Of a stretch of DNA of 64,000 nucleotides, positions 5,457-57,806 are shown piece after piece. Source of the stretch: Verrucomicrobiales bacterium. Lineage in GTDB: Bacteria; Verrucomicrobiota; Verrucomicrobiia; Limisphaerales; UBA9464. The DNA lies in the NCBI GenBank assembly GCA_027488845.1, contig JAIYBC010000052.1:62001-126000 (forward strand). Direction: 5' to 3'. Within the stretch, counting starts at the first letter, position 1. Every line of letters starts with the position of its first letter. The notes beneath the pieces are model-generated. The model was not told the origin of the DNA, did no database searches, and saw nothing but the letters and a program-made list of their open reading frames with translations. The position numbers were made by a program, and so were the translations under genes.

Positions 5457-5846
5457 TCAGGAGTAGCTGCTCCAGACGCTGGTACGGACAGGGGCGTAGG
5501 AACGCACCCGTTGCAGCTGGCGTCGTGAGCGGTCGAGCTCCGCCTGTTCCGCCTGGGCCAGGCGTCGGACGGTGTCCAGGACCTGGCCGTTGCGGGTCTC
5601 GAGCTGGATCAGCGAAGCCACCTCGCGGCGGAGGTCCTTCTCGATGTCCTCCCAACGGGTCCCGGTGCCGACGGTCTCGGTCCGGGCGTCGTCGGTGAAC
5701 TTCATGATGCGCGGCTGGAGTTCCAGCTTCGCGCGTTGGCAACTGTGGACCTTGGGCCAGTCCGACTGGCGGATGGCGTCGCCTTCCTCCTCGGTCCAGC
5801 GACGCCATTCGGCGTAGGTGTCAAACAGACGGTCTTTGGCGCTCAT
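5457..5846 (-). CDS. FliT/FlgN-like flagellar export chaperone (putative)
   Basis: A 129-aa, highly charged, all-helical protein without signal or membrane segment. A long central helix (about residues 60-110, REVASLIQLETRNGQVLDTV then AQAEQAELDRSRRQLQRV) resembles flagellar export chaperones of the FliT/FlgN sort. It is the last gene after flgM and fliS, the position where fliT usually sits, and it lies 42 bases downstream of fliS. Sequence similarity alone would not settle the identity; the call rests mainly on context and helix pattern. It probably binds a filament or cap subunit before export. Confidence 0.5.
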   Translation of the reverse strand: MSAKDRLFDTYAEWRRWTEEEGDAIRQSDWPKVHSCQRAKLELQPRIMKFTDDARTETVGTGTRWEDIEKDLRREVASLIQLETRNGQVLDTVRRLAQAEQAELDRSRRQLQRVRSYAPVRTSVWSSYS

Positions 5847-5888: not shown

Positions 5889-6344
5889 TCAGGCCGCGAC
5901 GGCGGCGACCGGGGTCATCCCCCGGGCGGCTTCCGACCCGCGTCCGGCGAGCATCTCGGCCCACGCGTCCCGCAGCGTCGTGATGAGGCGGATGACCAGG
6001 CGGATGCCGTCCGGTTCCTTGCGCAGGTTGCTCTGGCCGAGCTGGTCGTCGAAGAACCGGTAGAGCCGCCGCATGGTCTGGGAGAACTCGCCTCCCACCT
6101 CCATGTTCAGCGAGTGGTCCAGCTCACGGATGATGTCCTGGGCGCGGATCACGTTGTTGCTGACGGTGGAGTTGCACTCCGCCGGGTCATCCAGGTCGAA
6201 ACCGGCCAAGGCGCGGTCGAGGAAGCGGATGGCTCCGTCGAACAGCATCAGGACGAGTTGGCCTGGTGTTGCGGTCTGGGTGGCGACCTGGCGGTAGGAC
6301 TGCCAGGGGTTGACGGCGCGTCTCATGAGGGAATCTGGATTCAT
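5889..6344 (-). CDS. fliS: flagellin export chaperone FliS
   Basis: A 151-aa protein with the FliS signature: WQSYRQVATQTATPGQLVLMLF at the N-terminus, then DGAIRFLDRAL, the NVIRAQDIIRELDHSLNMEVGGEFS segment, and LYRFFDDQL. FliS binds the C-terminal helices of flagellin in the cytoplasm, stops early polymerisation and delivers it to the export gate. It follows flgM by 19 bases. The C-terminal tail after about residue 125 is Ala-rich and variable. Its presence implies that a flagellin gene exists elsewhere in this genome. Confidence 0.92.
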   Translation of the reverse strand: MNPDSLMRRAVNPWQSYRQVATQTATPGQLVLMLFDGAIRFLDRALAGFDLDDPAECNSTVSNNVIRAQDIIRELDHSLNMEVGGEFSQTMRRLYRFFDDQLGQSNLRKEPDGIRLVIRLITTLRDAWAEMLAGRGSEAARGMTPVAAVAA

Positions 6345-6755: not shown

Positions 6756-7427
6756 TCATCGGGCGGGCAGGGTTTCCGACACGGCCTGGGCCGCGTAGCG
6801 GGTGAAACGGGCCGGGGATCGCATGTCGGCCTGCGGGTCTCCCAGCTCGGCCGGCCCGGTGTGGTGCGCACGGAAGTAGTCCCGGGCTGCGCGGGCCACG
6901 TCCGCGTCGCCCGCGTCGAAGGTCTCGTCGGCCGACCAGAGCGTCTGCCCGGTCGAGGTCGTGACCAGGCGGGCGTCCACGCCGATCGACACCGGCGGAT
7001 ACACCCTCAACGAATGGACCCGAACGAACATCACGCCGTCGGCCACGAGGTTCGTGCGGATCCGTGCAAGGAAGTCCGCGGGCAAAGGCTCGCTGGCCGA
7101 GACCTTGTGGCGTCCGATCCAGCGGGTGAGTTCGGTCCGGGTGACGCTCAGGGTTTCGAATCGCCGGGTCTTCCGGAGCTCCTCCTCGAGGATCCGCTGG
7201 ACCTGGTCGAGGTGGGCGGAGTCGGTGAGGTCCTCCCCGTGGGTGGTCAGCGGCAGGATGGCCACACGTCGGAAGTCGGGAGGAAGCTTCTGGACGGCGC
7301 GGTAGATGTTCGCCGGCTTGAAGCGGGGGCCCACTTCCGGAAGCGCGACCTGGGACGTGGAGCAGCCGACGGCGAACCATGCCGACACGGCGAGAAGCAG
7401 CGGGGTTGGGATGCGGGGGCGTCTCAT
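6756..7427 (-). CDS. outer-membrane/periplasmic lipoprotein, LpoB/FlgO-like fold (putative)
   Basis: A 223-aa lipoprotein: signal peptide MRRPRIPTPLLLAVSAWFAV followed by a lipobox with the acylated cysteine at C22 (VGCS). The mature part has alternating strands and helices (VAILPLTT, LEEELRKTRRFETLSVTRTEL, VADGVMFVRVHSLRVYPPV, LWSADETFDAG), like lipoproteins of the LpoB/FlgO/GNA1162 type that recruit partners in the envelope. It begins seven bases after the giant glycosyltransferase stops and precedes flgM. The place suggests a flagellum- or glycan-related envelope role, which is inference. Confidence 0.6.
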   Translation of the reverse strand: MRRPRIPTPLLLAVSAWFAVGCSTSQVALPEVGPRFKPANIYRAVQKLPPDFRRVAILPLTTHGEDLTDSAHLDQVQRILEEELRKTRRFETLSVTRTELTRWIGRHKVSASEPLPADFLARIRTNLVADGVMFVRVHSLRVYPPVSIGVDARLVTTSTGQTLWSADETFDAGDADVARAARDYFRAHHTGPAELGDPQADMRSPARFTRYAAQAVSETLPAR

Positions 7428-7434: not shown

Positions 7435-10400
7435 TCAGGTTCCCGACGGGACCATCGAGTGGGCCACCACGCCCTGGAGCAGCTTGGCGGCGGACGGCAG
7501 GACGTTGCCGAGACGCGCCAGCCCCTCGTTGATCCGCAGGACCGAGGATTCGGCGTTGTGGTCGATGAGTTGGCGGTAGCGTCGGAGGAACTCCTGGCCG
7601 ACGGCGACCTCGGCCGATGGCGGCACCTCGGGCAAGGGCTGTTCCGCGAGCATGCGGCACAGCGTCAGTGCGCCCAGGTTGACCGGATCGGACGCGGGCT
7701 TCTGTTCCGCCCACAGGTCCACCGCCTCGGCCCCGAGCCCCCCGAGCAGAAGGGCCTCGGCCCGTTGACGCCGCAGGATGGGCATATCGGGGAGGTTCCG
7801 CAGCGCCTCGCCCGTCCAGTCGACGGCGAACTCGATGGTCGCAGGCTGGCGCAGGGCGACGATGCCGCCGACCTCCCAGGCCTTGGCATGGCGGGGATTG
7901 AGACCGATCACCTCGTTGAGGAGGGTCAGCGCCTCCACCGTCTTGCCGCGTTGGGCCTCGAGGACCGCGAAGTCCATGCGTGCCCCTTCCGACTGCGGCT
8001 CGTCCTGGAGGGCCTGCCGGTAGGCCTCCGCGGCCGCGTCGTTCTCGCCCAGGTGGCGGAGCGCGTTGCCAAGGCAATGGGTCGGGGCGCCGCGCATCAC
8101 GTCGGCGCGCACCGGCGTGAGGGCGGGACGTCCGCGCAACTGCAGGCATCGGCGCATCGCGTCGGCGCACTCCTTCCAGCGACGGGTCTCCAGGCAGGCC
8201 AAGCCGAGCTGGAACCAGAGCGTCGCCGTCTCATCCGCCGGACGCACGGCGCCGGACGTGAGCAGGTTGACGACGTCGTCGTAGCGCTTCATCTGGAGCA
8301 GGTGGGAGGTGAACTGGGTCATCAGCACCTCGCGCAGCTCTGGGGGCGTCTCCTCGTAGGGGCGTCGAATCATGACCTGGAAGGCCCGGTCGTAGTTCCG
8401 GACCGCCCAGTCCGGCTGGCCGGCCTTCCACAGCTCGAGGCCGAGGTTCATCAGCAGGTTGACGTCGTTCGGGAACTCCTCGTTGGCGAGCTCCAGGAGG
8501 CGGAGGTTCCGGTTCACCTTGTCGCGGCTCTTCACGACCTCGGCCTGGTAGCCGTGGTGGAGTAGACGCGCCTGGCCGAACCGGTTGTCGAGGCCCCACT
8601 GCTGGCGGCGGGTCTCGAGGCTCGCATAGACCTGCTCGTGGACGCGGCTGACGTAGAACAGCGCCGGGGCGTTGCGGAACAGGCGCGGGACCTGACTGAC
8701 CCCCTCGTTCTCGCGTCCGACGTCGGTCAGCGGGAGGCGCCAGGCGATGACGCCGTCCTCGCGGAGGTGGGAACGCAGCGTCTCATGCTGGTCCGGGAGC
8801 AGTTCCTCGTCGGCGTCGAGCACGAGGATCCAGTCGCCGGTGGCGTGGCGGAGGGCCTCGTTGCGGGCGTTGGAGAAGTGGTTGTCCCACGCGCGGAAGT
8901 GGACCTCGGCGCCGTGTTCGCGGGCGATTGCGACCGTGCGGTCGGTGGAGCCGGTGTCGACGAGCACGATCTGGTCGGCCAGGCCGCGGACCGACTCCAG
9001 GCAGCGGCCGAGGAAGCGTTCCTCGTTCTTGGCGATCATGCAGATGGTGAGCCGGGGACGTTCGCCCTCGCGGAACGGGGCCGGGGCGAGGTGGGAGGCC
9101 GGGGTGCCGGGGCGGCCCGGGATGCCGGAGAGGAGCTTCTTCGGCGTCTTCCAGCGGGGGGCGAGGACGGCGGCCTTGCGGGCGCACCGGCGGGCGAGGT
9201 CGAAGTCGCCGGCCTGGACGGCGGCCTCTCCGAGGAACACCCAGGCCTCGGGATGGAAGGGACGGATCCGAAGGGCCTCGATCGCGAGGTTCCAGGCCTC
9301 GGGGATCCTGCCGGCGTTGAGCGCCGCCACGGCGCCATCGAGGCGGCCGAGGTGGGCGACGGCGGGCAGGGTGAAGCCGACCACCGTGGAACGGCGCATC
9401 GCGGCGTCCGCGGCGGCCTCGCGGGCCTTGGTCTCGCGCAGTTCGTGCAGGTGGGCGACCGCGGTGCGCGCGGTCCGCTCCCAGGTCCAGTGGCTCCGGA
9501 CGTGTCGGGCACCCGCGGCGGCGCGTTCCTTCCACGGAGCGGGGTCCGCGGCCACCTCGCGCATCGCGTCGGCGAGCACCCGGGTGTCCGGTTCCAGCAG
9601 CCAGCCACGGTGGTCGAGCTTCATGCCGCTGATCTCGTTGCCGAGCATCACGCGCTGGGAGGGAAGCCGGCGGACGAACTCGTCCGTCGCGAAGTCGTCG
9701 GTCGAGCCGCCGCCGGTGACGATCACCGGCAGGGCGCAGGCCATCGCCTCCAGCACGGGGAGTCCGAAGCCCTCGCCGCGGTAGGGATGCACGAGGCAGT
9801 GGCACGCGGTGTAGAGGCCGGCCATCTCGGCGCCGGACAGCTCGGTGTCGAGATGGAGGATCTCCGGGGCGGCGGGATCGGCCTGCGCGGCGCGGATCCG
9901 GTCGGCGAGGGTCTGCCCGGCGTACACCGAGCCGCCGCCGAAATCCTTGATCACGAGGCAGACGTCGTCCGAGCGGCGGAAGGTCCTGAGGTAGGTGTCC
10001 AGGAGCAGGTCGGCGCCCTTGCGTCCGATGGTGCCGCCGACGAAGAGGAAGCGGAACGACTTGGAGGTCTTGAGCGCGAACGGCGCGGCCTCCGGACGGT
10101 GCAGGGCGGGATCGATGCCCAGCGGGAGGATCCGGAGCCTGGAGTCCGGCACGCCGGCCGCGATGTAGAGGTCGCGGACGTACCGGGTGTAGCACCAGAG
10201 CTGGTCCACGCCGGCGGCGGCCTTGGCCCAGTCGGCCGGGATGGAGCCGAATTCCCAGGGCTGCATCTGGATCCAGGCACCCTGGGCCGGGGCGTCCCAA
10301 CGGGGCGGCCATTCGTGGCGGAGGACGGCCTCGGTCGAGCCCGGGGCGCGGCCTTGGACGTCGCGGGCGAACCGGGCGAGTTCCGGCGGAAGCGAGCGCA

Positions 10401-13400
10401 GGGGTGGGGTCTTCGCGGAAACCGGCGTCGAGCGAACGCCGCCGCAGCGGGCGAGGGCCGTGTGCAGCTCGCGGTTCACGTGGGACAGCGAACCGAAGTC
10501 GAGGAAGGAGCCTTCGATCGCGAGGTTGACCGCCTTGCCGGGATTCGCCGGGGCGGAGCGGTGGAGGTCGACCACCGGGGCGGGCCGAAGCGTCGGCGTA
10601 ACCAGGCGGCGTTCGATCTCCTGCAGGCGGTGGAGGACGATCTCGGCCACGGCCTCGCGGCTGTAGTGGGTGGCCATGTGGACGCGGGCCGCGCGGCCCT
10701 TGGCCCGGGCTTCGTCGCGGTGGGTGAAGACGTGGCGCAGGAGCGTGCGGAGGTGCGGCTCGGACGGGTTGGCCCAACGGTGGCCCTTGTAGTGCCAAAG
10801 CTCGGGCTCCAGTCCGCGGGCCTCGACGATCTCGTAGTCGAGCAGGTAGCCGGTCTGCTCGGACATGAACTCGGTGTTCGCGCTCCAGTTGGTCGCGATC
10901 ACCGGACGCTCCATCAGCATGGCCTCGTGTTGGGGACGTCCCCAGCCTTCGCCGCGGCTCGGCGCGAGGTAGCAGTCGCACGCGAGGTAAAGCGAGGGAA
11001 GCTGCTCGTTGGGCACCTGCTCGGCGATGAGCTCGATGCGGGGCAACGCCTTGTCGCCGAGTCCGAGGGTGGCGGCGAACTCGCGGATGCGCTTCCAGAT
11101 GGCCTCGGCGGGATCGCCGTCGGGCTTGGAGAAGAGGTAGGTGCGGAGCCAGAGGCAGACGTCGTCGGCCGCGGAGAACTCACGCAGGTAGGCGGCGAGC
11201 ATCACGTCCCAGCCCTTCCGCGAGGACCACTCGAAGATGGAGAGGAAGTTGTAGCCGGCCCGGTTCGGCAGCGGATAGGCGGTGTGGAGGGCCGGGTCGA
11301 AGAAGTGGGAATCCACCGCGCCGGGGACGACGACGAGCTTGGAGCGTTCGACCCCGCTGTTGGCGAAGGTCTCCACGTTGAACTGCGACGGGACCCAGAC
11401 CTCGTCCATGCGGTTGCAGGCGGCCACCCACTCGGGGGCGATCCGGTCGGTCTCGAACATCGTGCGTCCGACGCTGCAGTGCGCGTTTTGAAGTCGGACG
11501 AAGCCGCCGGCCGGGTTGTGGGAGATCACGATCCCCTCGTTCAGGGACTCGAACCGGTCGTGCATCCGGAACAGCGATTCCCGTTCGGCCGGCGGGAGGC
11601 CCGCGATGAACTTCTCGGAGCGGACCACCGTGTGGTGCTTGATGCCGAGGTCGATGCGCCTCTCCAACGGCAGGACGAAGTTGATGGCCTCGCTGGCGTA
11701 GCCGGAGGGGTTGAAGATCGGCGCGGCCCAGCGGACCGGCATCCCGAGTTCGACGTCACGGCGACGGATCTGCAGTCCGACGGCGGTCATGACCAGCGTG
11801 TAGCGGCCGTCGTCGTGGGTCGTGGTGCTGTGCCGGTTGAACTTCGGGCGGAAGCCGGCGGCACGCAGGCGCGCGGCGAAGTCGACGTCCTCGCCCTGGT
11901 AGAAGCCGCGGCCGTCGTCCCACTTCACCCGGTCGGCGACGTGGGCCTTCAGCAGGATCAGGCCGCCGGTGACGTACACGTGGTCGTCGTCCTCATCGTA
12001 GTCCAGGAGCACGTGTCCGCGGGGGCCGCCGTGCGTGGCCCAGTCCCAGAACCGGGTGCCGTCGGGGTTGAGGATGCGGACCGCGAGCACCTCCCAGTCG
12101 TCTCCGAAGCGCTGTAGGCCGGCGTGGAAGTCGGCGTGGAAGACGAAGTCGTCGTCGACCACGACGAGGTGGTCGTACTTGGCCGCGGCGGTGAGCACGT
12201 TGCGCATCTCGCCGAGGCGGCCGTTGCGGGCGGCGTCGACGGCCGGGGCCGTGCCGACGCCTTCGGGCAGGTCCGCGGGCGGTTCGCCGCCGACGAGGAT
12301 CTCGAAGGCCGGGATGCCGAGGGCGCGGATCGACTCGATCTCCCGGAGCAGCTTCGCGGGCCGCTTGCCGTTGGTGATGATGAGGAAGGACCAGCCGGGA
12401 AGGCGTTCCTTCGAAGGGGTCCTCACCGTGGCCGGCTGCGGCGCCGGGGCGGGCCGCGGGGTGCCGGAGTCGACCGGAGTCGCGTGGGCGATCCCGAGGG
12501 CGTCCTGGAGCTGGTTCACGATGGCTTCGAGATCGGGGTGGGCGGGGCCGACGGACTGGGCGAGCCGATAGTGCTCGAGGGCGCCGCTGAAGTCGTCCTT
12601 TTCAAGCGCCTGGAGTCCGGCGGCGATGGCCTCTTCCTGGGCGTGCGTCAGCTTCGGGGCGGCGGGCTCGGGCCGGAGCGCGGCGACGCGTTCGGCGATG
12701 ACGGCGTCCTCGGGCAGCCGGCGATGCAGTTCCTCGAAGACCTCCAAGGCGGTGGTCTTGTCGCCGAGCTTCAGCAGGCATTCGCCGAGGACCACGAGCG
12801 CGTCCTCGTTCTCCGGTGCCAGCTTCAGGAGGCGTTCGCAGACCTGGGCGGCCTCGAACCACTGTCCGCGCCGGAACAGCACCTGGGCGAGGAGCGCGAG
12901 GGCGTCCACGCCGTCCGGCTGGACCTCCAGGGCGGCCCGCGCGGCGGCCTCGGCCTTCGCGAGAGGGTCCTCGACCGGCGCCTCCACGGCGCGGCGGTTG
13001 AAGAGCGACGGCGCGAGGGTCTTCGGCTTCGGCGCGGCGGTCGGAGTCGGCTTCGGAGCGGGCAACGGGGCCGGGGCCGGGTTCACCGAGGACGCGGTCC
13101 GGGTGGACGTCTTGGAGGCCTTCGGTGCCACGACCGAAGCGCCGACGCCGGAGGCGGGACGCCAGGTGGCAGCGCCGTCGAGAGCGGTCCGGAACAGCTC
13201 GGCGTAGCGAGCCGCCATGGGTGCCCAGTCGAAGCGTTCGACGACGGCCCGGCGGGCGTTCCGGCCGAGTTCCACGCGGAGTTCCGGATTGTCGCGGAGC
13301 TCGCAGACCGCGTTGAGGAACGAGGGAAGCAGGTACTCGACGAGCTTGGCGTTCCGACCGTCGACCAGGTACTCGGGCACGGTGCCGTTGTCCGTGGTGA

Positions 13401-16400
13401 TGATCGCTCGCTCCATCGCCGCTGCTTCCATCAGGGAGTTGTTGTTGCCCTCCTGGTGGACCGCCGACGAACAGACATAGCAGTCGATCGAGTCGTAGAA
13501 CTTCCGCATGCCCTCGAGGTCGAGGTTCTTGTCGGAGTAGCCGCAGAAGACCAGTTCCACGCCCGGAAGCCGGGTGAGGGGCTGGATGAGGGATTCGAAG
13601 CCCTTGGCCTTGTTGGCGCGGTTGCCGGCCCAGCCGATGCGCAGGCGGCCGTGGCCTGAGATGTCGGCTTTCGTGGACGGACGGAAGAACTCCGTGTCCG
13701 TGCCGTGGGTGACGTAGTGGGTGTTCGGGACGAACGGCTGGAAGAGGCGGGTGAGCCGGTCCGAGACGCAGTGGATCCGCTGGAACTTCGTGTTCAGCAG
13801 CTCCGTGAGGTTGAGGAAGTCCTGGTCGGCCCAGGAACAGACCGAACGGATGCCGGTGATGTACTTCGACGGCGTGCGGATCAGGGCCGGCGCGATCAGG
13901 TTCCACTCCAGCGGATAAAGCAGGTCGTAGTCGTCCTCGTTGTACGGTTGGCCGTGGAACTTGAGGTCGAAGTCGAACTCGTGTCCTAGGCGTTCCTTCA
14001 GGACCTGGCAATGACGGGCGAAGATCCACTTCGGGACGTCCGCCATGAGCATCACGCGCGGCTTCCGGCCGGAGGCCATCCGGCGGGGCGCGACGGAGGC
14101 GGTGGGTGCCGGGGAGACGGAGGCCGGGACGGTCGCGCGGCGGCCGATGTAGACGCGCTTCGGGATGACCTGGGATTCCTCCTGGATCTCCTCAAGACGC
14201 AGGCCGGCGCGCTCGAAGGCGGCGCGGACGTCGGCCTCGGAGAACCGGCTCCGGTACTCGCTCGGACGGCGTTCGGACTCCGGCTTGTTGCGGTCGGCGG
14301 TGTGGTACCGGTTGCCGGGGACCGCGTCGTAGGCGGTGTCGATGATGTCGATGACGAACACGCCGTCCGCGGCGAGCGAAGGCAGGTAGGTCGCGAGGAG
14401 AGCGTCGAGGGAGAAGTTCTCCAGCAGGTGGCACCAGTTCAGCGCCTCGATGACGGCGTAGCGTTCCTTGCCGAGGAGTTTCGGCGCCAACGCGTCGTCG
14501 ACGGCGAGGGTCACCGGGAGCCCGGTCTGGGCGGCGATCTGCTGTCCGGCGGCGATGGCCTTGGGATCGATGTCGGTGCCGTAGAGTCGGGTGAACCCGC
14601 GTTCGGCGAGCCAGAACAGGTTCATGCCCACGCCGGTGCCGATGGACAGGATCGGCCGGTGCGGTGCGACGTTGCGGGCGATCCATTGGCAGGGCTTCAC
14701 GACGTCCCAACGCGAGGCGCGTTCGCGGAAGATGTAGCCGAACCAGGGTTGGGCCCCGTGGTCGGCGATGGCCTTCTCCACAACCGCCGACGGGATCCGG
14801 ATCGCCGGATCGAGGTCGACCTGCGATTCGGCTCTTGCGACACGGCGGGCGACGTAGACGGTGAGGGGAACCGTCTGCTCCCGGGTGTACGTTTCCACGA
14901 TGGAAATCCCCTTTCTCAGGCACGTGGAGCGCACTTCCGCATCGGACATCCTGAATCGAAACTCGGAAGGGCGGCGCTCGGAGACCGGTTTGCCCCAGTC
15001 CGCCGTGTTGTAGGCGTTGTCCGGGTGCTTCGAGTAGGACGCGTCCACCATGTCGAACACGAAGGACCCGCCGGGTTTGAGGCGGCTCAGGTAGGTGTCG
15101 AGGAACACCTCGAAATCCAGTCCCTCGATCAACCGGAGGACGTTGATGCACATCACGACGTCGTAGGTCGCGGATCCGAGATGGATAGGATTCCTGAGGT
15201 CATCCCGCCAAACGCGGACGGAAAGGGAACACGCCCCGATGATCTCGTTCGCGGCGGAAACGGTGGCTGGGTCCGAGTCAAAGCCGTCCAGATTGCGGAA
15301 TCCTTCCTGCTCGAGGAAGAAGAGGTTCATTCCAAGTCCGCAGCCCGGTGACAGGACCGAGGCGGTTGACGGGTGATTGGTGGCGATCCACCGGCCTGTT
15401 GCCATCGCCTCCCAACGTTCACCACGTCGGCGGAACCCTCCCTCCTTGTGCCATGCGTGCAGTCCGTTGCGATCCACTGCGGCGTCCACGACATCCGTTG
15501 GAAGCCGGATCGGCGAGATCTCCGATGGAGCCATGGGCTGACCCGTGGGACGGGTGTTGACTTCGATCGGTGCCGGTGCGGCGGTGGTCCGGGGCGCGGC
15601 GGCGCCGGTCCGGGCCGCGTAGAGGTCGGCGTACTCGGCCATCGTGCAGGCCTTCACGCCACGTCGTTCGGCCAACTCGAAAACCCGGGCCATCATGTCG
15701 AGGTAGCGTTGCACCTCGGCGGCGGTCTGGGGATACGGCGAGGCCCCGGCCAGCAGTTCCACGTTGTGGAACATCATCATCAGCGGGCGGTGGACCCCGT
15801 TCACCGGCGGTTGCGCCAGGACGTGGTCGAGGACGCGGCAAAGCGTGTCGGCGTCGGAGTACCACGGACGGAACCAGATCGGTTCTGCCGGGTTGTTCGA
15901 GGCGACCGTCCCGGTAGGCAGAATCGTCACGGGAACCTCGAGCAGTCCCCCGGTGCCTGGGCAGGAAATGTCCCCCTCGGGTCCCAGGGTGTAGGGCATC
16001 TCCGGGTGCCGTCGGTAGTCCGGACGCTTCTCGCCGCGGCGGCTGGTCCAGCAGATGTGGGGCGTGACCGAGGAATCGATCCGGTAGCCAAGCTCCTGGA
16101 GGATCCGGCCGGTGTGGGGTCCGGCGCCGAAGCGGCCGGCCCGGAAGCTCAGGGGCTGGAAACCGAACTGTTGGCGGAACATCTCGGTCAGCGTCGCCAT
16201 CTTGGCCCGCTCGAGTTCGGCCCCGTATTCCCACTGCATCTCATCCGTCGTGGTGCCGGCGAAGTCCCAGGTCTTGATCTGCGGAACCACGTAATCCCCA
16301 TGGAGATGCGTGGTGAGCTCAACGTCGCGGCAGGCCTTCAGGGCGGCGACGCTCCCGGGGTGCGTCATGACCTCCGGGCTGAGCAGGTAGGTCGGCCGGA

Positions 16401-16548
16401 TGCCGAACCGGGCGAACAGCGGCTGGAGCCGGTCGGGGATGGCCTCGGTCACTCCGCGGAAGGTGAGGGGCGAGGCGGTGCGCCAGGTGGACGACTTGTC
16501 GCACTCGGTGTCGATGGTGACCAGCAGGCGCGGTTCGACGGGGTTCAT
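7435..16548 (-). CDS. giant multidomain deacetylase/methyltransferase/glycosyltransferase, 3037 aa
   Basis: One uninterrupted cytoplasmic-looking protein. Domains from the ATG at 16548: polysaccharide-deacetylase-like NodB fold (1-315; TIDTEC, HLHGD, SFRAGRFG); two tandem class-I methyltransferases (350-570 and 580-805); GT-B glycosyltransferase 1 (830-1125); Pro/Ala linker and TPRs (1195-1350); a GT-A-like domain (1384-1585; VVVDDDFVF); GT-B 2 (1600-1985; PSRGEGWGRPQHEAM); GT-B 3 (2005-2375; YRGEGFGLPVLEAMA); TPR (2385-2465); a GT2 domain (2498-2730; MIAKNEERFLGRCLESV, VDTGSTDRT, LDADEEL); and C-terminal TPRs (2735-2960). A GTG start at 16578 is possible but overlaps the upstream gene. It lies between a second such enzyme and flagellar genes, consistent with building and decorating a glycan on flagellin or another surface structure. 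Confidence 0.85.
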   Translation of the reverse strand: MNPVEPRLLVTIDTECDKSSTWRTASPLTFRGVTEAIPDRLQPLFARFGIRPTYLLSPEVMTHPGSVAALKACRDVELTTHLHGDYVVPQIKTWDFAGTTTDEMQWEYGAELERAKMATLTEMFRQQFGFQPLSFRAGRFGAGPHTGRILQELGYRIDSSVTPHICWTSRRGEKRPDYRRHPEMPYTLGPEGDISCPGTGGLLEVPVTILPTGTVASNNPAEPIWFRPWYSDADTLCRVLDHVLAQPPVNGVHRPLMMMFHNVELLAGASPYPQTAAEVQRYLDMMARVFELAERRGVKACTMAEYADLYAARTGAAAPRTTAAPAPIEVNTRPTGQPMAPSEISPIRLPTDVVDAAVDRNGLHAWHKEGGFRRRGERWEAMATGRWIATNHPSTASVLSPGCGLGMNLFFLEQEGFRNLDGFDSDPATVSAANEIIGACSLSVRVWRDDLRNPIHLGSATYDVVMCINVLRLIEGLDFEVFLDTYLSRLKPGGSFVFDMVDASYSKHPDNAYNTADWGKPVSERRPSEFRFRMSDAEVRSTCLRKGISIVETYTREQTVPLTVYVARRVARAESQVDLDPAIRIPSAVVEKAIADHGAQPWFGYIFRERASRWDVVKPCQWIARNVAPHRPILSIGTGVGMNLFWLAERGFTRLYGTDIDPKAIAAGQQIAAQTGLPVTLAVDDALAPKLLGKERYAVIEALNWCHLLENFSLDALLATYLPSLAADGVFVIDIIDTAYDAVPGNRYHTADRNKPESERRPSEYRSRFSEADVRAAFERAGLRLEEIQEESQVIPKRVYIGRRATVPASVSPAPTASVAPRRMASGRKPRVMLMADVPKWIFARHCQVLKERLGHEFDFDLKFHGQPYNEDDYDLLYPLEWNLIAPALIRTPSKYITGIRSVCSWADQDFLNLTELLNTKFQRIHCVSDRLTRLFQPFVPNTHYVTHGTDTEFFRPSTKADISGHGRLRIGWAGNRANKAKGFESLIQPLTRLPGVELVFCGYSDKNLDLEGMRKFYDSIDCYVCSSAVHQEGNNNSLMEAAAMERAIITTDNGTVPEYLVDGRNAKLVEYLLPSFLNAVCELRDNPELRVELGRNARRAVVERFDWAPMAARYAELFRTALDGAATWRPASGVGASVVAPKASKTSTRTASSVNPAPAPLPAPKPTPTAAPKPKTLAPSLFNRRAVEAPVEDPLAKAEAAARAALEVQPDGVDALALLAQVLFRRGQWFEAAQVCERLLKLAPENEDALVVLGECLLKLGDKTTALEVFEELHRRLPEDAVIAERVAALRPEPAAPKLTHAQEEAIAAGLQALEKDDFSGALEHYRLAQSVGPAHPDLEAIVNQLQDALGIAHATPVDSGTPRPAPAPQPATVRTPSKERLPGWSFLIITNGKRPAKLLREIESIRALGIPAFEILVGGEPPADLPEGVGTAPAVDAARNGRLGEMRNVLTAAAKYDHLVVVDDDFVFHADFHAGLQRFGDDWEVLAVRILNPDGTRFWDWATHGGPRGHVLLDYDEDDDHVYVTGGLILLKAHVADRVKWDDGRGFYQGEDVDFAARLRAAGFRPKFNRHSTTTHDDGRYTLVMTAVGLQIRRRDVELGMPVRWAAPIFNPSGYASEAINFVLPLERRIDLGIKHHTVVRSEKFIAGLPPAERESLFRMHDRFESLNEGIVISHNPAGGFVRLQNAHCSVGRTMFETDRIAPEWVAACNRMDEVWVPSQFNVETFANSGVERSKLVVVPGAVDSHFFDPALHTAYPLPNRAGYNFLSIFEWSSRKGWDVMLAAYLREFSAADDVCLWLRTYLFSKPDGDPAEAIWKRIREFAATLGLGDKALPRIELIAEQVPNEQLPSLYLACDCYLAPSRGEGWGRPQHEAMLMERPVIATNWSANTEFMSEQTGYLLDYEIVEARGLEPELWHYKGHRWANPSEPHLRTLLRHVFTHRDEARAKGRAARVHMATHYSREAVAEIVLHRLQEIERRLVTPTLRPAPVVDLHRSAPANPGKAVNLAIEGSFLDFGSLSHVNRELHTALARCGGVRSTPVSAKTPPLRSLPPELARFARDVQGRAPGSTEAVLRHEWPPRWDAPAQGAWIQMQPWEFGSIPADWAKAAAGVDQLWCYTRYVRDLYIAAGVPDSRLRILPLGIDPALHRPEAAPFALKTSKSFRFLFVGGTIGRKGADLLLDTYLRTFRRSDDVCLVIKDFGGGSVYAGQTLADRIRAAQADPAAPEILHLDTELSGAEMAGLYTACHCLVHPYRGEGFGLPVLEAMACALPVIVTGGGSTDDFATDEFVRRLPSQRVMLGNEISGMKLDHRGWLLEPDTRVLADAMREVAADPAPWKERAAAGARHVRSHWTWERTARTAVAHLHELRETKAREAAADAAMRRSTVVGFTLPAVAHLGRLDGAVAALNAGRIPEAWNLAIEALRIRPFHPEAWVFLGEAAVQAGDFDLARRCARKAAVLAPRWKTPKKLLSGIPGRPGTPASHLAPAPFREGERPRLTICMIAKNEERFLGRCLESVRGLADQIVLVDTGSTDRTVAIAREHGAEVHFRAWDNHFSNARNEALRHATGDWILVLDADEELLPDQHETLRSHLREDGVIAWRLPLTDVGRENEGVSQVPRLFRNAPALFYVSRVHEQVYASLETRRQQWGLDNRFGQARLLHHGYQAEVVKSRDKVNRNLRLLELANEEFPNDVNLLMNLGLELWKAGQPDWAVRNYDRAFQVMIRRPYEETPPELREVLMTQFTSHLLQMKRYDDVVNLLTSGAVRPADETATLWFQLGLACLETRRWKECADAMRRCLQLRGRPALTPVRADVMRGAPTHCLGNALRHLGENDAAAEAYRQALQDEPQSEGARMDFAVLEAQRGKTVEALTLLNEVIGLNPRHAKAWEVGGIVALRQPATIEFAVDWTGEALRNLPDMPILRRQRAEALLLGGLGAEAVDLWAEQKPASDPVNLGALTLCRMLAEQPLPEVPPSAEVAVGQEFLRRYRQLIDHNAESSVLRINEGLARLGNVLPSAAKLLQGVVAHSMVPSGT

Positions 16549-16567
16549 GCTTCGGCTTGAGGTGGGG

Positions 16568-19500
16568 TCAAAGCGCACTGTCCAGACCGTTGGTCTTCAA
16601 CAGGCTGTCCATTGCTGAGCAAAGGGCGCGCCAATTGGCCAGGAAGCGCTCCCGGCCGGGCTGCGGACCCGCCATCTCGGCCAGGAGATCGGCGTCCCGG
16701 TAGGTCTGAACGGCATGGTAGGGAACCCCCATCATGTCGCAGAAGCCGCTGGTCCGGGTGTCCGTGGCGAGGAACGTCGCCGGACGCCCGTAGGCGAGGG
16801 ACAGCATCCCGAAGTGCAGGCGGAAGCCGGCGGTCCGGGTGGCGAGGTGGACGCCCTGGATCATCGGACCGGCGCCCCAGTTGTCGTCGTGCAGGGACTC
16901 GAGTCCGAACTCGCGGACGAGGTCCTCGGCGATCGGCAGGTCGTACGGGCTCTGGAGCAGCAGCACCGGACGGAAGTCCCGGCAAAGCCGCTTCAGGGTC
17001 TCCATCTGCTTGAGGTTCCAATGTTCCTCGACGTGCAGGAGACGGGCCCGGACCGACAGCACGAGGCGTTCGGAGGAAGGCTCGAGGAACTGCGGTTCGC
17101 GGAGGCCGTGGAAGAGCACCGGGCAGCCGGTGAGTTCGACGTTCCGGATGCCGAGGCTGCGGACGAAGTCGAGCGCCACCGGATCGCGGACGGAGCCGAC
17201 GGCGCAGCGTTCATGGATCATCCGCACCGCCTGGACGCCCTCGGGGTTCATCGCCGGCAGGCGTCCGATCGGCGCGCTGGAGCCGACGCCGAGCGGCAGG
17301 ATCGGCACGCGGATCCGGGAGATCACCGCCGGGGTCAGCGGGCAGGAGAAGACGTGCTGGTAGAGGTTCGTGCCGCAGATCACCGCGGCGTCGCAGCCGT
17401 TGATCTCCTCGATCTGGGCCGGCGAGAGCGGCTGGAGCAGCGGAAGCTCATGGAGCCGGTGGCCGCCGAGGATCCGGCGGACGGCGTCCACGATCAGGGC
17501 GTCGCCCGAGTTGTCGCCGTTCACCGCGGCGCTCAGCAGGGCGAGCGTCTTGCGGCGGAAGGCGGGTTTGGCGGTCCGGCCGATGGCCGGTGCGGCTTCC
17601 GTCACCTCGATGCGGGAGGGTGCCGACGCCGACGGGAACTCGACGAGGTAGAGGAACTCCGCACGGCCGAGGTCGGTCTTGGACAGGATCCGACCGCCGT
17701 GGGAGCGGAACAGGTCCTCGAGTCCGGGGAATCCGAGGGGGTTCTCCCAATGTTGGGCGGCGCGCCGGACCGGGTTGGAACAGTCGTTGAACGACATCAC
17801 CAGCCAGCGCACGTGCGAGGCGGCCCAACGGACCAGGCGGTCCGGGTCGGCGAAGTACTCGAACACGCCGAGGAACGTGGCGACCGAGTGCGACTCGGCG
17901 GGCAGTTCCTGGGCGAAGTCCATGATCCGGACGCCCGGAGCGCGGGCGATGCGGTCGATCGGTTCGTAGCGGACCGACGCGGGGAGCAGCGGCTTGAGCG
18001 TCTGGTGTCCGCAGCCCATGTCGACGACGGAAGCGCCGGCGGGCAGGGGCAGGGAGACGACCGCGGCGGCGGCGGCGCGGGCACGGTCGGGCCATTGGCC
18101 GAGGTCGACGCCGAGATTCCGCTCGTGGAAGGCCCCGGCCGGGATCGGCGAGGCGGTCTCCTCCGGCGGCAACGCGCGCCAGGCGGCCCGGAGGGCGCGG
18201 CGCCAATGCGGGGCGACGTCGTCCCAGCGGCGCTCCGTCGCCATGCGGCGGGCGTTGTCGGAGCCGGCCTGGCGGACCTGGTCGACGTTCTGTCGGCACC
18301 ATTGGAAGGCGGCGCCGAATGCGGCCGGATTCCGGTTCACCACGAAGCCGTTCTCCCCGTGGCGGACCAGCTCGGGGACGATCCCGACGTCCACGGCCAC
18401 CGGGAACACGCCCGAGGCCATGCCCTCGACGAGGGTCAGCGGTTCGCCTTCGGCCGTGGAGGCGACGCAGAGGACGTCGATGGAGTTGTAGAAGCGTCCC
18501 ATGGCGGCGGAGTCGAGGTCGCCGCCGGCGAGGACCAGCTCGAAGTCGCGTCCGGCCGCCGGGACGAGGACGTCGTCCACGCCCTTGCAGGCGTCCTTGC
18601 GGTTGCCGGCCCAGCCGATGCGGAGCGGTCCGGTTCGGTTCTCCCGGGCCGAGAAGGTCCCGGTCTCGAAGCCGTTCGGGCACCAGAACACCTCCCGGTG
18701 CGGGGAGAAGGCGTCGCGGAGCCGATGCGAGGTGGCCGTCAACGTGCCGGCGTCGGCGAGGTACTTCGCCGCGGCCTGGGCGGCGTTGAGCCGGCCGTAG
18801 GCATCCTCGTTCTCCCAGCGGTGCGAGCTGATCTCCTTGATCACCCGGCAGGGCTTCACGCCGAACTTGCGATGGTAGTCCTCGCCCCAGAAGAACACAT
18901 AGAGCAGGTCGAACTTCCAGGCGTTGAGATCCGGGTTCTCCCGCACGTACTCAATGCGGAACTCGAACTCGTCGGACAGCCGGCGGGAGATGGCCTGGGC
19001 GGCCGTGTCGTAGGCCCAGCCGCGCTTGTCGACGAGCATCAGCACGCGCGGCTTCTCGCCGTCGGGACGCAGCACCGGCAGGCCGAGCAACGCCGGATCC
19101 ACGGCCGGCTTGCGGGCCGGTGCAGTGACGGACTGGGTCGGCTGGGTCGCCGTGGAGTGTGAGGCGGCCGGGGCGTTGGCGTTGGCGGCGGTGACCGTTG
19201 GGGTCGCGGTCCTGGAAGCCGGACGGAGCTTGCGGGCGACCTCGGGGGCGATGGTCGAGGTGAGCTTGTCCCACCAGCGTTCGAGGGTGTAGTCGCGCAG
19301 GGTGCGCTTCCATCCGGCGGCGGCGATCCGGCGGCGTTCCTCGTCATGGGCGAGGTAGTAGCGGGTCTTGTCGATGCACTCGGCCAGGGTCTCGAAGCCG
19401 ACGACCTCGCGGTCCAGTTCGTAGATCTTCCCGAGGTGCGAGCGGTTGTCGCAGATCTCCAGGACGCCGAACGCCGGGAGCATCGTGGTGCGGGTGTTGC

Positions 19501-21049
19501 AGGGCCCGATGCTGTTGTGGAGGTTCCAGCCGATCTTCGCGCGGCGGTACACCGGCGGGGCCTCGACCGCGCCGCCCGGCCAGCCGGGTCCACGGACGAA
19601 CGCGTTCGGGAACTCCTTCACCAGCGCCTCGATGCGCTGGGCGCGGTCGCTGAGGTTGAAGACGCGTTCGCAGAGGAGGACCACGTCGAGGTCGCGCGGC
19701 CCGTGCAGGATGGAGCTTTCGGTCAGCTCCGGGGCGCACAGTTCGGGACGGACGGGCGTGAAGATCCACTCGACGTTGCGGCAACCCCAGCGGCGGTAGT
19801 CGTCGACGCAGGCGATGTTGATCGGGAACGCGAAGTCGAACGCCGGAGCGGCGGGCTTCGAGAGCACCTCGCTGCTCTCCGGGTCGTCGGCGCACACCCA
19901 GACGTTGAAGGTGGACAGCGTCCGGACGAATTCCGGGTGCAGCATCGGACCGCCGGAGGAGACGAGGACGTCCTTGGAACGCAGCCGTTCCTCCAACTGG
20001 GTGTACATCGCCATCAGGTCGGCCGAGCGGTTCCGCCACTTCTCGTCGAGCTTCGGGAAATGCCACCAGCCGCCGGGACAGGGCAGTCCGATCGCCTCGA
20101 CGTCGTAGCCCATGGCGCGGACGTTCGCCGCGAAGGCTTCCTCCTCCACGCGACGCGCGTCGGAGGTGCACGGATAGACGATGGCGTAGCGGAGCTTCCG
20201 GGTGTCGATCGGCGCGGAATCCGGTGTGGGGGCCGAGGAGACGACGGGAGGCGTCGGCGCGGAGAAGGGCACCGGTGCGGCGGCCCGGGCGGCGGCGAGG
20301 GTGGCGCCGATGTCGAAGCGGGTCGGATGCTGCAGCGCGGCGACCGGGGCCGGGGCGGGCTTGCGGGCCGGGACAGCCTGGGGCTTGCGGAGGACGCCGC
20401 ACCAGGAGTGGCGGAGGTTCACGACCTCCAGGTCGAGCAGTCCCTGGTCGCGCAGGAAGCGCTCCACGCCGCGCATCGAGGCGTCGATCCAGTCGAACCG
20501 GCGCGAGAACTGCGAGAAGTCGTGCCAGACGATGAATCCGCCCGGCGCGATGCGGTCCCAGACCAGCTTCGAGTCGAGGTAGACGTTCTCCTCGTCGTGG
20601 GCGGCGTCGACGAAGACCATCCCGAGTTTCCGGATGTGTGCGGGGATCTCCCAGCGGGCGGTGTTGGCGTAGAGCTGTTCGACGTTCTTCAGGCCCCGTT
20701 CGCGGTAGTAGGAGCCGATGGCGTCCTTGTCGATCAGGTGGGTGACCATCTTGCCGCCCGAGGCGTCGTGCTGTTCCGGCAGGATGTTGACGGTGTGGCA
20801 GACGAGTCCGTGCGACAGGTTGGAGGCCAGCTTGAACGCGCCGCGGCCGTGGGAGGTGCCCAGTTCGAGCACGTTGTGGATGGCGTTCGCGGCGAGGGTG
20901 CAGAGCACCTCGGCGTCCCGGCGCTTGCGGCCGTTCACCTCGGTGTCGTTCTCCACGACGTCCAGGTCCGGCTCGAGCAGTTCGCCGTCGCAGGGCAGAC
21001 CGAAGTGGCGTTTGAGTTCCTCGATGGAGTCGACGACGCGGATCTTCAC
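16568..21049 (-). CDS. multidomain methyltransferase/glycosyltransferase/pyruvyltransferase, 1493 aa
   Basis: Domains in order: a class-I SAM methyltransferase of the cephalosporin-hydroxylase type (about 35-225; LELGTSHGRGAFKLA, WHDFSQFSRR); a CgeB-like glycosyltransferase (285-600); a Pro/Ala/Thr linker (605-660); a GT-B glycosyltransferase (665-960; RIGWAGNRKDACKG, EGEPLTLVEGMASG); a small methyltransferase (975-1140; VVDMGCGHQTLKP); and a polysaccharide pyruvyl transferase domain (1165-1490; NGDNSGDALIVDAVRR, GTNLYQHVFS). The pyruvyl domain adds ketal pyruvate to cell-surface sugars in CsaB/WcaK relatives. It stops 19 bases before the 3037-aa gene. It repeats the GT-B variant IGWAGNR seen there, so the two probably share an acceptor and act as an assembly line. 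Confidence 0.85.
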   Translation of the reverse strand: MKIRVVDSIEELKRHFGLPCDGELLEPDLDVVENDTEVNGRKRRDAEVLCTLAANAIHNVLELGTSHGRGAFKLASNLSHGLVCHTVNILPEQHDASGGKMVTHLIDKDAIGSYYRERGLKNVEQLYANTARWEIPAHIRKLGMVFVDAAHDEENVYLDSKLVWDRIAPGGFIVWHDFSQFSRRFDWIDASMRGVERFLRDQGLLDLEVVNLRHSWCGVLRKPQAVPARKPAPAPVAALQHPTRFDIGATLAAARAAAPVPFSAPTPPVVSSAPTPDSAPIDTRKLRYAIVYPCTSDARRVEEEAFAANVRAMGYDVEAIGLPCPGGWWHFPKLDEKWRNRSADLMAMYTQLEERLRSKDVLVSSGGPMLHPEFVRTLSTFNVWVCADDPESSEVLSKPAAPAFDFAFPINIACVDDYRRWGCRNVEWIFTPVRPELCAPELTESSILHGPRDLDVVLLCERVFNLSDRAQRIEALVKEFPNAFVRGPGWPGGAVEAPPVYRRAKIGWNLHNSIGPCNTRTTMLPAFGVLEICDNRSHLGKIYELDREVVGFETLAECIDKTRYYLAHDEERRRIAAAGWKRTLRDYTLERWWDKLTSTIAPEVARKLRPASRTATPTVTAANANAPAASHSTATQPTQSVTAPARKPAVDPALLGLPVLRPDGEKPRVLMLVDKRGWAYDTAAQAISRRLSDEFEFRIEYVRENPDLNAWKFDLLYVFFWGEDYHRKFGVKPCRVIKEISSHRWENEDAYGRLNAAQAAAKYLADAGTLTATSHRLRDAFSPHREVFWCPNGFETGTFSARENRTGPLRIGWAGNRKDACKGVDDVLVPAAGRDFELVLAGGDLDSAAMGRFYNSIDVLCVASTAEGEPLTLVEGMASGVFPVAVDVGIVPELVRHGENGFVVNRNPAAFGAAFQWCRQNVDQVRQAGSDNARRMATERRWDDVAPHWRRALRAAWRALPPEETASPIPAGAFHERNLGVDLGQWPDRARAAAAAVVSLPLPAGASVVDMGCGHQTLKPLLPASVRYEPIDRIARAPGVRIMDFAQELPAESHSVATFLGVFEYFADPDRLVRWAASHVRWLVMSFNDCSNPVRRAAQHWENPLGFPGLEDLFRSHGGRILSKTDLGRAEFLYLVEFPSASAPSRIEVTEAAPAIGRTAKPAFRRKTLALLSAAVNGDNSGDALIVDAVRRILGGHRLHELPLLQPLSPAQIEEINGCDAAVICGTNLYQHVFSCPLTPAVISRIRVPILPLGVGSSAPIGRLPAMNPEGVQAVRMIHERCAVGSVRDPVALDFVRSLGIRNVELTGCPVLFHGLREPQFLEPSSERLVLSVRARLLHVEEHWNLKQMETLKRLCRDFRPVLLLQSPYDLPIAEDLVREFGLESLHDDNWGAGPMIQGVHLATRTAGFRLHFGMLSLAYGRPATFLATDTRTSGFCDMMGVPYHAVQTYRDADLLAEMAGPQPGRERFLANWRALCSAMDSLLKTNGLDSAL

Positions 21050-21484: not shown

Positions 21485-24112
21485 TCACTTCTCCGGCGGG
21501 AAGGTGGCCGGATCGAAGGGCAGGTTCTTCGGATCGTTCAAACGACTTCCGGCGGCGTCGATCAGGGTCGGGGTGATGAGAACGAGGCGATGGCGGACTT
21601 CCGTGTGGCTGGCCTCCTTGCGGAACAACCGACCGACCAAAGGAAGGTCGCCGAGGACGGGAACACTGTCCTTCGTGGAGACCTTGTTGGTGACGAGGCC
21701 GAGGCTCAGAACGACGGACTGTCCGTCCCAGAGATGGGCGCGAGCCGTTGCTTGGTTGGTTCGGATGAGAGGTAGCGGTGTCTTCTCCGGGTTGTCCAGA
21801 TAGCCAAGGAACTCGACCACTTCCGCAGCGGCATGGAGTTTGATCGCGTTCGTATCGAATCCATCGACCCAAGCCGTCAGGCGGATCTTCGGGCCGGTGA
21901 GAAGGGAGATGTAGTGTACAGTCTCCGGGACGCCGTCGGTGGCCGGGGATTTCGAGGTGACCACCGTCTTGGCCTCCTGGACGGAGACCTCGGCATCCCG
22001 ACCGGAAAGGGTTGTGACCCGTGGCGCCGTCAGGATTTCGGTACCGACGGCCGACTCGATTCCGCCCAGCAGGTTTCGTGTCTTCTCCGCGGTGAGGATC
22101 GAAGTGGACCCGCTTTCGGCTCCGACTCGGTCAAACTTGGAAAGTTGATCCGGCAGAACATCGATCCACTTCGTGGCCAACTCGATCTGAGCTGGCCGCA
22201 TGTTCAGGACCAGAAGGGCCCGGTCCATGGCATCGCAGACGTCCTGCGTGGCTCGCACGAACAGCTTTCCCTGACCGTTGAGGTACAACACCGGGCGCCT
22301 CTGCTCCGGGGATTCCGTGTTTCCTGCCAATGGCTCGGCGGCAGTGGGAATGGGCAGCCCGAGCCGGTTCAGGTACAACTTCAACCCCGCCACGATTGAG
22401 GCTGTGTCATTCGGTGAGATCTGCCGGCCGAGAGACTCTCCCAGCGCCATGGCCATCGCCCTGGGGTCGACGGAGAAAACGCGGACCCGGAGGGGAACCT
22501 GTTGCTTCGAAGCAAGCTGTTCGGAGGAGACGTCGTCGTTCGTGGAGGATGTGACGGGAGACGCAGGTGTGGCACCCGCCGAGGTCGCTCCTGGATCTAG
22601 CTTCAGCCCGTAGCGGCGGGCCAGGACCGGGTCCATCCGATTGGGTGTGGACGTCGACGCCGGGGTGGCGGTGGGAACATCGGTCTCAGCTCGCGATTGG
22701 AAGTTTCCTTCCTGCCACTCGGATGCCTTCTGCATCAGGTCGTCGTCGGTCTCCGATGGCTCAGACGCTTCTCTCGCTGATCCTAGCCAAAGCTGGTAGG
22801 TCTTCCGAAGCTGTTCGCGGACCTTCGGATGGCTGTCCTTGTAGCGTTTCCGGAGCTTCAGGAGTGCTGTGAACTCCTTGTTGAAGGCGGCGCCGCTGTC
22901 GCTCCGGCTGATGGGAGAGATCCCGTTGACCAGGACCTGGGGTTTCAGGTCTTGCCCAAGCGCACGCCAGTCCACCGCCTCGGCGGAGTCGAGTCCACGA
23001 TCGGTGCCGTTCACCGAGGTGGGCTCCGTCGAACTGTTGGCGCGTCTGCTTTCGACCCGCCGCGCGAAGCCCATTGGGACGAAGAGGGCGCCGGCGAGGA
23101 CCACGGCGATCCATCCGGTCCAACCCATCCGGGCGCTGCGCGGCAATGGCTGCTCCACCAACCGGCGCACGCGTTTCTCCAGCCGGCTCCGCGACTCTAG
23201 GATCGAGAGCAGGGCCAGCGAGAGTCCGGACGGCGTCGCGCAATGGCGGGCCACGGCAACCAACGTGGACGGGTAGGACTCCGAGTCGGGTTCCAGCATG
23301 ACCGCTTCGTCCACGACCTCCTCGCGCAACGCACGGATCCGGGCGTTCACGAATCCGACCAGCGGGTTCCACCACCAGAGTGCCTGGACCGCGACCTGGA
23401 ATCCGTGGAACCACAGGTCCCGTCGGGCCAGGTGGACCAGCTCATGCCGCAGGACTTGGCGGAGCGCCTCCGGCCCGATTCGGTCGGGGAGTTCCCGGGG
23501 AAGGAGGATCACGGGACGGAAGAACCCGAAGAGTGCCGGACTGTGCGCGATCCGGGTCACGCGGATCGATGGCAACCTGTCGATGTGGAGTCGCTCGGCG
23601 GCTTCCTCCAGCAGTCGCACAAGCGTCTCCGGGGCCGATTCGGATTCCCGGACGAGCGCCTGGATCCGCCGGTTCCGGACGAGGACAGCCGTCGTCCAGA
23701 CGCCGATGCCGGCCAGCCAGACCAGCGCGAGGATCCCTGGAAGCTGCAGGGAGACCGGAGCCGGGGTGAAGCCGGCGGTGAGCGCTCCAACCGGGATTTC
23801 GGTCGACGATGCTGCGAACGGGCCGACGGTGGGGCTTCCCGTGAACGAGACGACCCGGATCGGTTCGGCGAAGCGGGGCGCGATCCAGTAGGCCAGGGAC
23901 GTCGGAGACAGGAAGCCGGGTGGCAGGACGAACTTGAGCAGGACCAGCATCCAGAGTCCGTGGCGCAACGCGGCGCGGATGCGGTGGCGGAGCAGGCGGT
24001 CCACCACCAGGAGCACACCCACCAGGACGGCGGCCTGGAAGGTGATCCAGAGGGCGGCGAGGCCGGCTTCGGCGCCGACGGCGTTGAGGAAGGAGAGGAC
24101 GTGGTCGTTCAT
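21485..24112 (-). CDS. BlaR1-type M56 peptidase fused to a secretin-like domain
   Basis: An 875-aa membrane protein. Residues 1-350 are an M56 (BlaR1/MecR1) module: membrane segments at about 14-40, 52-70, 124-145 and 325-345, with the zinc motif HELVH at 223-227. A low-complexity Ser/Thr linker (350-545) follows. The C-terminal 320 residues resemble a secretin/GspD core (LNMRPAQIELATKWIDV, ILTAPRVTTLSGRDAEV, VPVLGDLPLVGRLFRK, VLITPTLID). BlaR1 proteins sense an external signal and cleave a cytoplasmic repressor. Here the penicillin-binding sensor is replaced by a secretin-type domain, so the ligand is unlikely to be a beta-lactam. It sits 22 bases after the blaI-like gene on the same strand. 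Confidence 0.8.
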   Translation of the reverse strand: MNDHVLSFLNAVGAEAGLAALWITFQAAVLVGVLLVVDRLLRHRIRAALRHGLWMLVLLKFVLPPGFLSPTSLAYWIAPRFAEPIRVVSFTGSPTVGPFAASSTEIPVGALTAGFTPAPVSLQLPGILALVWLAGIGVWTTAVLVRNRRIQALVRESESAPETLVRLLEEAAERLHIDRLPSIRVTRIAHSPALFGFFRPVILLPRELPDRIGPEALRQVLRHELVHLARRDLWFHGFQVAVQALWWWNPLVGFVNARIRALREEVVDEAVMLEPDSESYPSTLVAVARHCATPSGLSLALLSILESRSRLEKRVRRLVEQPLPRSARMGWTGWIAVVLAGALFVPMGFARRVESRRANSSTEPTSVNGTDRGLDSAEAVDWRALGQDLKPQVLVNGISPISRSDSGAAFNKEFTALLKLRKRYKDSHPKVREQLRKTYQLWLGSAREASEPSETDDDLMQKASEWQEGNFQSRAETDVPTATPASTSTPNRMDPVLARRYGLKLDPGATSAGATPASPVTSSTNDDVSSEQLASKQQVPLRVRVFSVDPRAMAMALGESLGRQISPNDTASIVAGLKLYLNRLGLPIPTAAEPLAGNTESPEQRRPVLYLNGQGKLFVRATQDVCDAMDRALLVLNMRPAQIELATKWIDVLPDQLSKFDRVGAESGSTSILTAEKTRNLLGGIESAVGTEILTAPRVTTLSGRDAEVSVQEAKTVVTSKSPATDGVPETVHYISLLTGPKIRLTAWVDGFDTNAIKLHAAAEVVEFLGYLDNPEKTPLPLIRTNQATARAHLWDGQSVVLSLGLVTNKVSTKDSVPVLGDLPLVGRLFRKEASHTEVRHRLVLITPTLIDAAGSRLNDPKNLPFDPATFPPEK

Positions 24113-56347: not shown

Positions 56348-56433
56348 TCTGGGGACTCCGTGGAGAGCGTGTCCGGTTGGAGTGGATGGGGACAGAGGAA
56401 TGGACGGTGTCGCCGTCCAAACTCGGAAGAGGC

Positions 56434-56459
56434 GTGAGACTCGTGACCTCGTCTCCTAC
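56434..56459. repeat. 26-bp GTGAGACTCGTG repeat, copy 2
   Basis: Identical to 34585-34610 over 26 bases, with weaker similarity continuing downstream. It lies between the DMFase-like gene and the XRE-type regulator. Confidence 0.75.
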
Positions 56460-56573
56460 GATGTGGAGGGGTGCGCACTGTTGGGAATTTGTCACCGGGC
56501 GATTCGCGCTCGTAGTACGCTGGATACCAGCATCAAGCGACAGCGGAAGGCATTTCCACGGGAAGTAATAACC

Positions 56574-56777: not shown

Positions 56778-56863
56778 TGTTGGGAATTTCCAGCCACCGC
56801 AGTCGGGGTGGAGACACGTCGACCGCAGCGACTCCTCCCTCTTCTGGGTCTGAACCCGACCAG

Positions 56864-57769: not shown

Positions 57770-57806
57770 CGCTGGTTTTGAAAGGACAGGTGGCAATTGG
57801 GACCTT

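Follow-up and report, generated by a model that had tools for sequence, protein, structure and literature searches.

A giant multi-module enzyme in a verrucomicrobial flagellar locus, probably acting in flagellin glycosylation, with N-terminal modules exchanged between relatives

The closest described counterparts of the enzyme reported here come from flagellin and O-antigen glycosylation. GmaR of Listeria, a flagellin O-GlcNAc transferase and MogR antirepressor, transfers GlcNAc to flagellin by a GT2 catalytic domain that is followed by a TPR domain proposed to recognise flagellin (PMC9638930). In Clostridioides difficile type B, glycosyltransferases (GTs) encoded beside the flagellin gene act in sequence, adding GlcNAc and then rhamnoses, and one of them, GT2, is fused to a methyltransferase domain (PMC5207246). 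Islands of Enterobacteriaceae and Geobacillus vary in GT, methyltransferase and sugar genes (e.g. FkbM and rfbC) beside flagellar genes (PMC4875605, PMC5109656, PMC7575072), and GT41–methyltransferase fusions are among them (PMC4875605). Polypeptides that combine several GTs with a methyltransferase or terminator are already known for O-antigens (i.e. WbbB and Klebsiella O7 ORF6; PMC11231755).

We analysed a window of 64,000 nucleotides (the whole stretch of DNA studied) from a verrucomicrobial MAG, in which one gene encodes a chain of about 3,000 residues. It differs from each of these systems: (i) GmaR, at 637 residues, has a single GT plus an antirepressor domain, whereas its likeness here is one module of a 3037-residue chain in which an antirepressor domain was not recognised; (ii) the C. 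difficile type B system has three separate GT genes, whereas five GTs, two methyltransferases and a CE4-like domain are joined here; (iii) whole genes vary in the Enterobacteriaceae and Geobacillus islands, but modules within one open reading frame vary here; and (iv) WbbB and Klebsiella O7 ORF6 have fewer modules, serve an O-antigen polymer with an ABC exporter and have no flagellar context. The open-licence papers searched contain no account of flagellin glycosyltransferases of giant size, nor of a single chain that comprises nearly a whole island and exchanges modules within its gene, and in that literature the glycosylation of verrucomicrobial flagellins appears not to have been studied.

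The reading frame and its modules

The gene is one unbroken minus-strand frame, while the plus-strand frame over the same stretch contains several stops. It reads from an ATG to a stop at 7435; an alternative in-frame GTG at 16578 would extend it to 3047 residues (7435–16578). The ATG is favoured over the GTG because the residues that precede MNPV are not conserved in G003 and G018 (loci L036 and L035), and it is clear of the upstream 1493-residue gene, which overlaps the GTG start. Both the uninterrupted frame and the length of 3037 residues given by a first-pass annotation, which did not state the strand, therefore hold, the latter as the length from the ATG.

The annotation had proposed a search for the same architecture elsewhere. 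Six other MAGs of the same genus (loci L031–L038) contain homologues that extend over the whole frame; records of relatives carry the label Verrucomicrobia or Verrucomicrobiales, and one seems to be mislabelled as Akkermansia. Differences between the window and L031 fall mostly on third codon positions (52, 39 and 217 at positions 1, 2 and 3), and dN/dS along the frame is 0.12–0.22. The frame is thus a protein-coding gene under purifying selection. A Megablast search of plasmid sequences gave no match.

The product contains one CE4/NodB-like domain, two methyltransferases, three GT4 modules, two GT-A (GT2-type) modules and three TPR blocks (Table 1). Pfam profiles identify three GT4 stretches (Glyco_trans_1_4/Glycos_transf_1), each with an E-x7-E motif read directly from the sequence, and two class I Rossmann methyltransferases (Methyltransf_23/25), both with an intact glycine-rich SAM motif. 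The GT-A modules match Glycos_transf_2 (residues 2511–2629) and, more weakly and with the segment scanned alone, Glyco_tranf_2_3 (residues 1399–1593; 34.4 bits against a cut-off of 27), and the DxD motif is intact in both. TPR profiles match in three blocks. This agrees with the inventory of the first-pass annotation (two methyltransferases, three GT-B and two GT-A glycosyltransferases, and several TPR blocks), and its reading of the protein as a single-chain enzyme that builds and modifies a glycan is well supported. No transmembrane segment was found in the chain, the highest 19-residue hydropathy being 1.73 (inside GT4c), which agrees with a cytoplasmic enzyme.

Table 1. Features of the giant enzyme gene and its neighbours in the window; residue numbers of modules are counted from the GTG at 16578
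Feature	Residues	Position	Strand	Evidence or remark
Small gene next to FliS, resembling FliT only in its position		5457..5846	-	kept with FliS in relatives
FliS, flagellin export chaperone		5889..6344	-	PF02561 E=5.7e-31; TIGR00208 86 bits (cut-off 53.75)
LipoX, small lipoprotein-like gene		6756..7427	-	adjoins FliS/FliD across the order
Whole giant enzyme, 3037 aa		7435..16548	-	frame, conservation, codon-position differences, dN/dS
C-terminal TPR superhelix	2701–3040	7459..8478	-	
GT2 glycosyltransferase 2	2509–2700	8479..9054	-	DAD motif (residue 2588)
TPR block b (short)	2410–2490	9109..9351	-	
GT4c	2016–2375	9454..10533	-	E-x7-E motif EGFGLPVLE
GT4b	1621–1995	10594..11718	-	E-x7-E motif EGWGRPQHE
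GT-A1 (GT2-type)	1396–1620	11719..12393	-	DDD motif
TPR block a	1205–1355	12514..12966	-	Pro/Ala linkers on both sides
GT4a	838–1145	13144..14067	-	E-x7-E motif EGNNNSLME
Methyltransferase 2 (MT2)	588–815	14134..14817	-	SAM motif GTGVG
Methyltransferase 1 (MT1) and linker	346–582 (MT1 352–582)	14833..15543	-	SAM motif GCGLG
CE4/NodB-like domain (putative)	15–325	15604..16536	-	motifs, low-confidence fold matches
Second modular enzyme, 1493 aa (MT24, GT, GT4, MT23, pyruvyl transferase)		16568..21049	-	

The NodB-type deacetylase at the N-terminus is the weakest of the annotation's assignments. Residues 11–340 matched neither Polysacc_deac_1, the family named for it, nor any other Pfam or NCBIfam model; Polysacc_deac_1 had no match in the whole genome, and a PDB sequence search with the alignment of this region returned noise only. 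Because the profile did not match, the assignment rests on (i) three putative metal or catalytic motifs, TIDTE, THLHGD and FRAGRFG, which are invariant in the alignment of five genomes, and (ii) a low-confidence structure model (pLDDT 49.5) whose first 25 fold matches are nearly all CE4 deacetylases or the related ChbG (best E 8.5e-4). We treat residues 15–325 as a putative domain of probable deacetylase fold.

The flagellar neighbourhood and its distribution

FliS lies two genes downstream of the giant enzyme on the same strand, and the source genome carries flagellin genes and FliD on other contigs. LipoX, which matched no family in a Pfam scan, also occurs at L037:4629–5309, L062:4978–5673, L065:4037–4825, L069:17393–18139 and L074:10215–10970 and is a candidate for an uncharacterised flagellar lipoprotein. 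The upstream modular enzyme varies between relatives, with TylF gained in G013 and the pyruvyl transferase absent in G018.

The flagellar setting recurs. The order in G018 and G003 is FliD, an NAD-dependent epimerase (scanned in G018), a 1209-residue counterpart of the upstream enzyme and the giant enzyme, and G006 has a methyltransferase, a DegT aminotransferase and another methyltransferase upstream, with LipoX and FliS downstream. In another family of the same order (L060), the genes read flagellin, a 2562-residue enzyme, flagellin, FliD, LipoX and FliS; two loci from other families (L065 and L069) have a similar layout with enzymes of 1954 and 1978 residues. Flagellins lie beside the giant gene in L063, L066 and L067, and FliS does so in L062, L071, L086 and G130 (L074). 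Glycosyltransferase and sugar-tailoring genes thus stand beside fliC, fliD or fliS, as in a flagellin glycosylation island. Among the neighbouring genes scanned, there was no match to a flippase, polymerase or ABC exporter.

Elsewhere in the window, a BlaR1-type M56 peptidase and a secretin domain form one 875-residue protein (21485–24112, minus strand), an unusual fusion whose gene adjoins a BlaI-like repressor (24135–24401). Towards the end of the window (56000–64000), G+C falls from about 0.67 to 0.53–0.61 and a transposase-like frame is present (58175–58663); this is probably a mobile or foreign stretch.

We then surveyed 286 genomes of the class. The GT-A1/GT4b core is present in 12 (E≤1e-40) and a near-full-length C-terminal GT2-TPR unit in 23, mostly within frames of 1,850–3,232 residues, while FliS is present in 67. 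FliS accompanies the unit in 21 of 23 genomes, compared to 46 of the 263 others (Fisher p=6e-13, phylogeny ignored), and within the order in 20 of 22, compared to five of the 20 listed genomes that lack the unit (p=2e-5, phylogeny likewise ignored). The distance from the unit to flagellin, FliD or FliS is at most about 20 kb in 13 genomes of the 23, or in 14 if one weak match is counted; three of the 23 units are on contigs shorter than 12 kb. No flagellar gene was found within the ∼20 kb examined in G102, G083, G122, G027, G164 and G236, with few flagellin seeds that divergent flagellins may escape. The two unit-bearing genomes without a FliS match are G113 and G029, the latter with two flagellins near the unit. 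The class also has flagellated members that lack the unit, so it is not general.

Two variants of the architecture were found in the survey. G130 has a 4,432-residue frame (L064:3595–16890, minus strand) that carries GT-A1/GT4b, no fewer than four GT2 domains, several GT4s and extended TPR arrays. Next to it is a 1196-residue frame with GT4c-TPR-GT2-TPR; the pair is either one gene that has been split or a relative of even greater size. Two genomes, G191 and G029 (L088 and L089), encode the GT2-TPR unit by itself, as a gene of 657–680 residues; in G029 this is the copy close to the flagellins. Such genes may represent the state before fusion and suggest a fusion origin for the giants.

Module exchange in the N-terminal half

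The N-terminal modules are exchanged one by one at linkers, while the C-terminal half, to which GT4c belongs, is conserved across the order. G012 is 92–98% identical in the modules covered (about 95%), yet it has no MT1 (residues 346–582), with the break in a Pro/Ala-rich linker. In G013 the NodB-like domain is 99% and the C-terminal half 92–99% identical, MT2 and GT4a drop to 83% and 72%, respectively, MT1 is missing and a DUF268 module (PF03269, E=2.3e-32) is inserted after residue 825. G006 has a glycosyltransferase and an FkbM methyltransferase in place of the NodB-like domain, MT1 and MT2, and in other families the N-terminal half consists of HAD hydrolases, methyltransferases or several GT2 domains. 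The Pro/Ala linkers that the first-pass annotation placed between modules are therefore also where natural gains and losses break.

MT2 is present in G012, G013, G003, G018 and G005, whereas MT1 is absent from all relatives that cover its place. MT1 appears to be a foreign module that was gained recently, because its GC3 is 0.77, compared to a gene median of 0.92, and it shares only ∼40% identity with the MT2 type. A recent copying of MT2 was ruled out by that identity, taken against the relatives' MT2, and by GC3 (0.77 against 0.91). As N-terminal modules are gained, lost and replaced at linkers, even close relatives are expected to carry different flagellar glycans, and strains probably decorate their flagella differently.

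Proposed function and alternative readings

GmaR (22ao_A) is the closest solved protein to the C-terminal GT2 (residues 2505–2700), with E=9.4e-31 as a single sequence and 5.8e-36 as a profile, and the TPR superhelix follows directly downstream. The next-closest solved proteins are the peptide S-glycosyltransferases SunS and ThuS, which share a related GT2 core but act on bacteriocin (glycocin) peptides; membership of the SunS family was rejected, as TIGR04195 scores 66.9 bits, far below its cut-off of 350. GT2-TPR proteins have other roles too. The GmaR likeness fits the flagellar context and points to flagellin as the acceptor, which is no proof of the sugar transferred. Neither this target nor the change of architecture among near-identical relatives figured in the first-pass annotation.

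We consider it highly likely that the giant acts in the cytoplasm as a soluble O-glycosyltransferase of flagellin, uniting in a single polypeptide most of the steps by which a flagellin glycosylation island builds its glycan. Its modules probably assemble a sugar chain on the flagellum and methylate it. From these data we infer the substrate, sugars, reaction order and effect of module swaps as follows. The C-terminal TPR superhelix would bind unfolded flagellin, perhaps as a flagellin–FliS complex, and the adjacent GmaR-like GT2 would attach the first sugar to Ser/Thr. GT4c, GT4b, GT-A1 and GT4a may then extend the chain, and tailoring of its distal end would fall to the CE4-like domain and the methyltransferases at the N-terminus, along with the neighbouring 1493-residue enzyme and its methyl, pyruvyl and further sugar modules; the glycosylated flagellin would be exported afterwards. 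The enzyme would therefore work from C to N, with initiation at the C-terminus, extension in the middle and tailoring at the variable N-terminus. A fixed order of modification, suggested in the first-pass annotation, is likewise an inference. In a different system, Maf-dependent flagellin glycosylation is reported to precede chaperone binding and export (PMC4065374).

Other readings were weighed against this one. An assembly artefact, in which several genes were wrongly joined into one long frame, deserves a thought as the data come from MAGs and some relatives show contig breaks inside the gene, but we give it hardly any credence and rejected it: the same junctions occur in independently assembled MAGs, L037 is a complete relative of 2935 residues, purifying selection extends along the frame, fused relatives occur in many families, and the two contig ends of G013 share an exact 119 bp overlap inside the gene, by which its halves were joined. 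It is also quite improbable that the enzyme works on a lipid carrier, building an O-antigen-like repeat for the envelope or an exopolysaccharide in the manner of the multi-GT polymerases WbbB, chondroitin synthase or Klebsiella O7 ORF6, and stands beside flagellar genes by accident. O-antigen clusters do contain fused GTs with a methyltransferase (PMC11231755), and the GT4 and GT2 families are not substrate specific; against this, the enzyme gene has flagellar neighbours in many other families of the order too, FliS co-occurs with the unit, the solved proteins closest to the C-terminal GT2 glycosylate polypeptides, and neither export or polymerase genes among the neighbours scanned nor a membrane segment in the enzyme was found.

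A separate MptE/Maf-like gene could be the true flagellin initiator, with the giant only extending the chain and its GmaR-like module adding an internal sugar. This would be a sub-variant of the flagellin reading rather than an exclusive alternative. One MptE-like frame, at C65:121429, does exceed the family cut-off, but its 45.6 bits are modest, its position is on a different contig, close to further glycosyltransferase matches, and the GmaR-like unit also exists on its own, in one genome near flagellins. We therefore regard a separate initiator as unlikely.

For the order as a whole, we see about an even chance that its giants are flagellin glycan assembly lines with C-terminal initiation and recombination of linker-bounded N-terminal modules, such that module content sets the flagellar glycotype of a strain. 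Described islands consist of separate genes or two-domain fusions, whereas most of the pathway would here be one chain. Near-identical relatives that differ by one module amount to natural domain-swap experiments, and a comparison of their glycans would show whether module content predicts glycan structure. Giant scaffolds of this kind could also serve glycoengineering. If true, the exchange of modules in these flagellar enzymes would parallel the swapping of modules among polyketide synthases.
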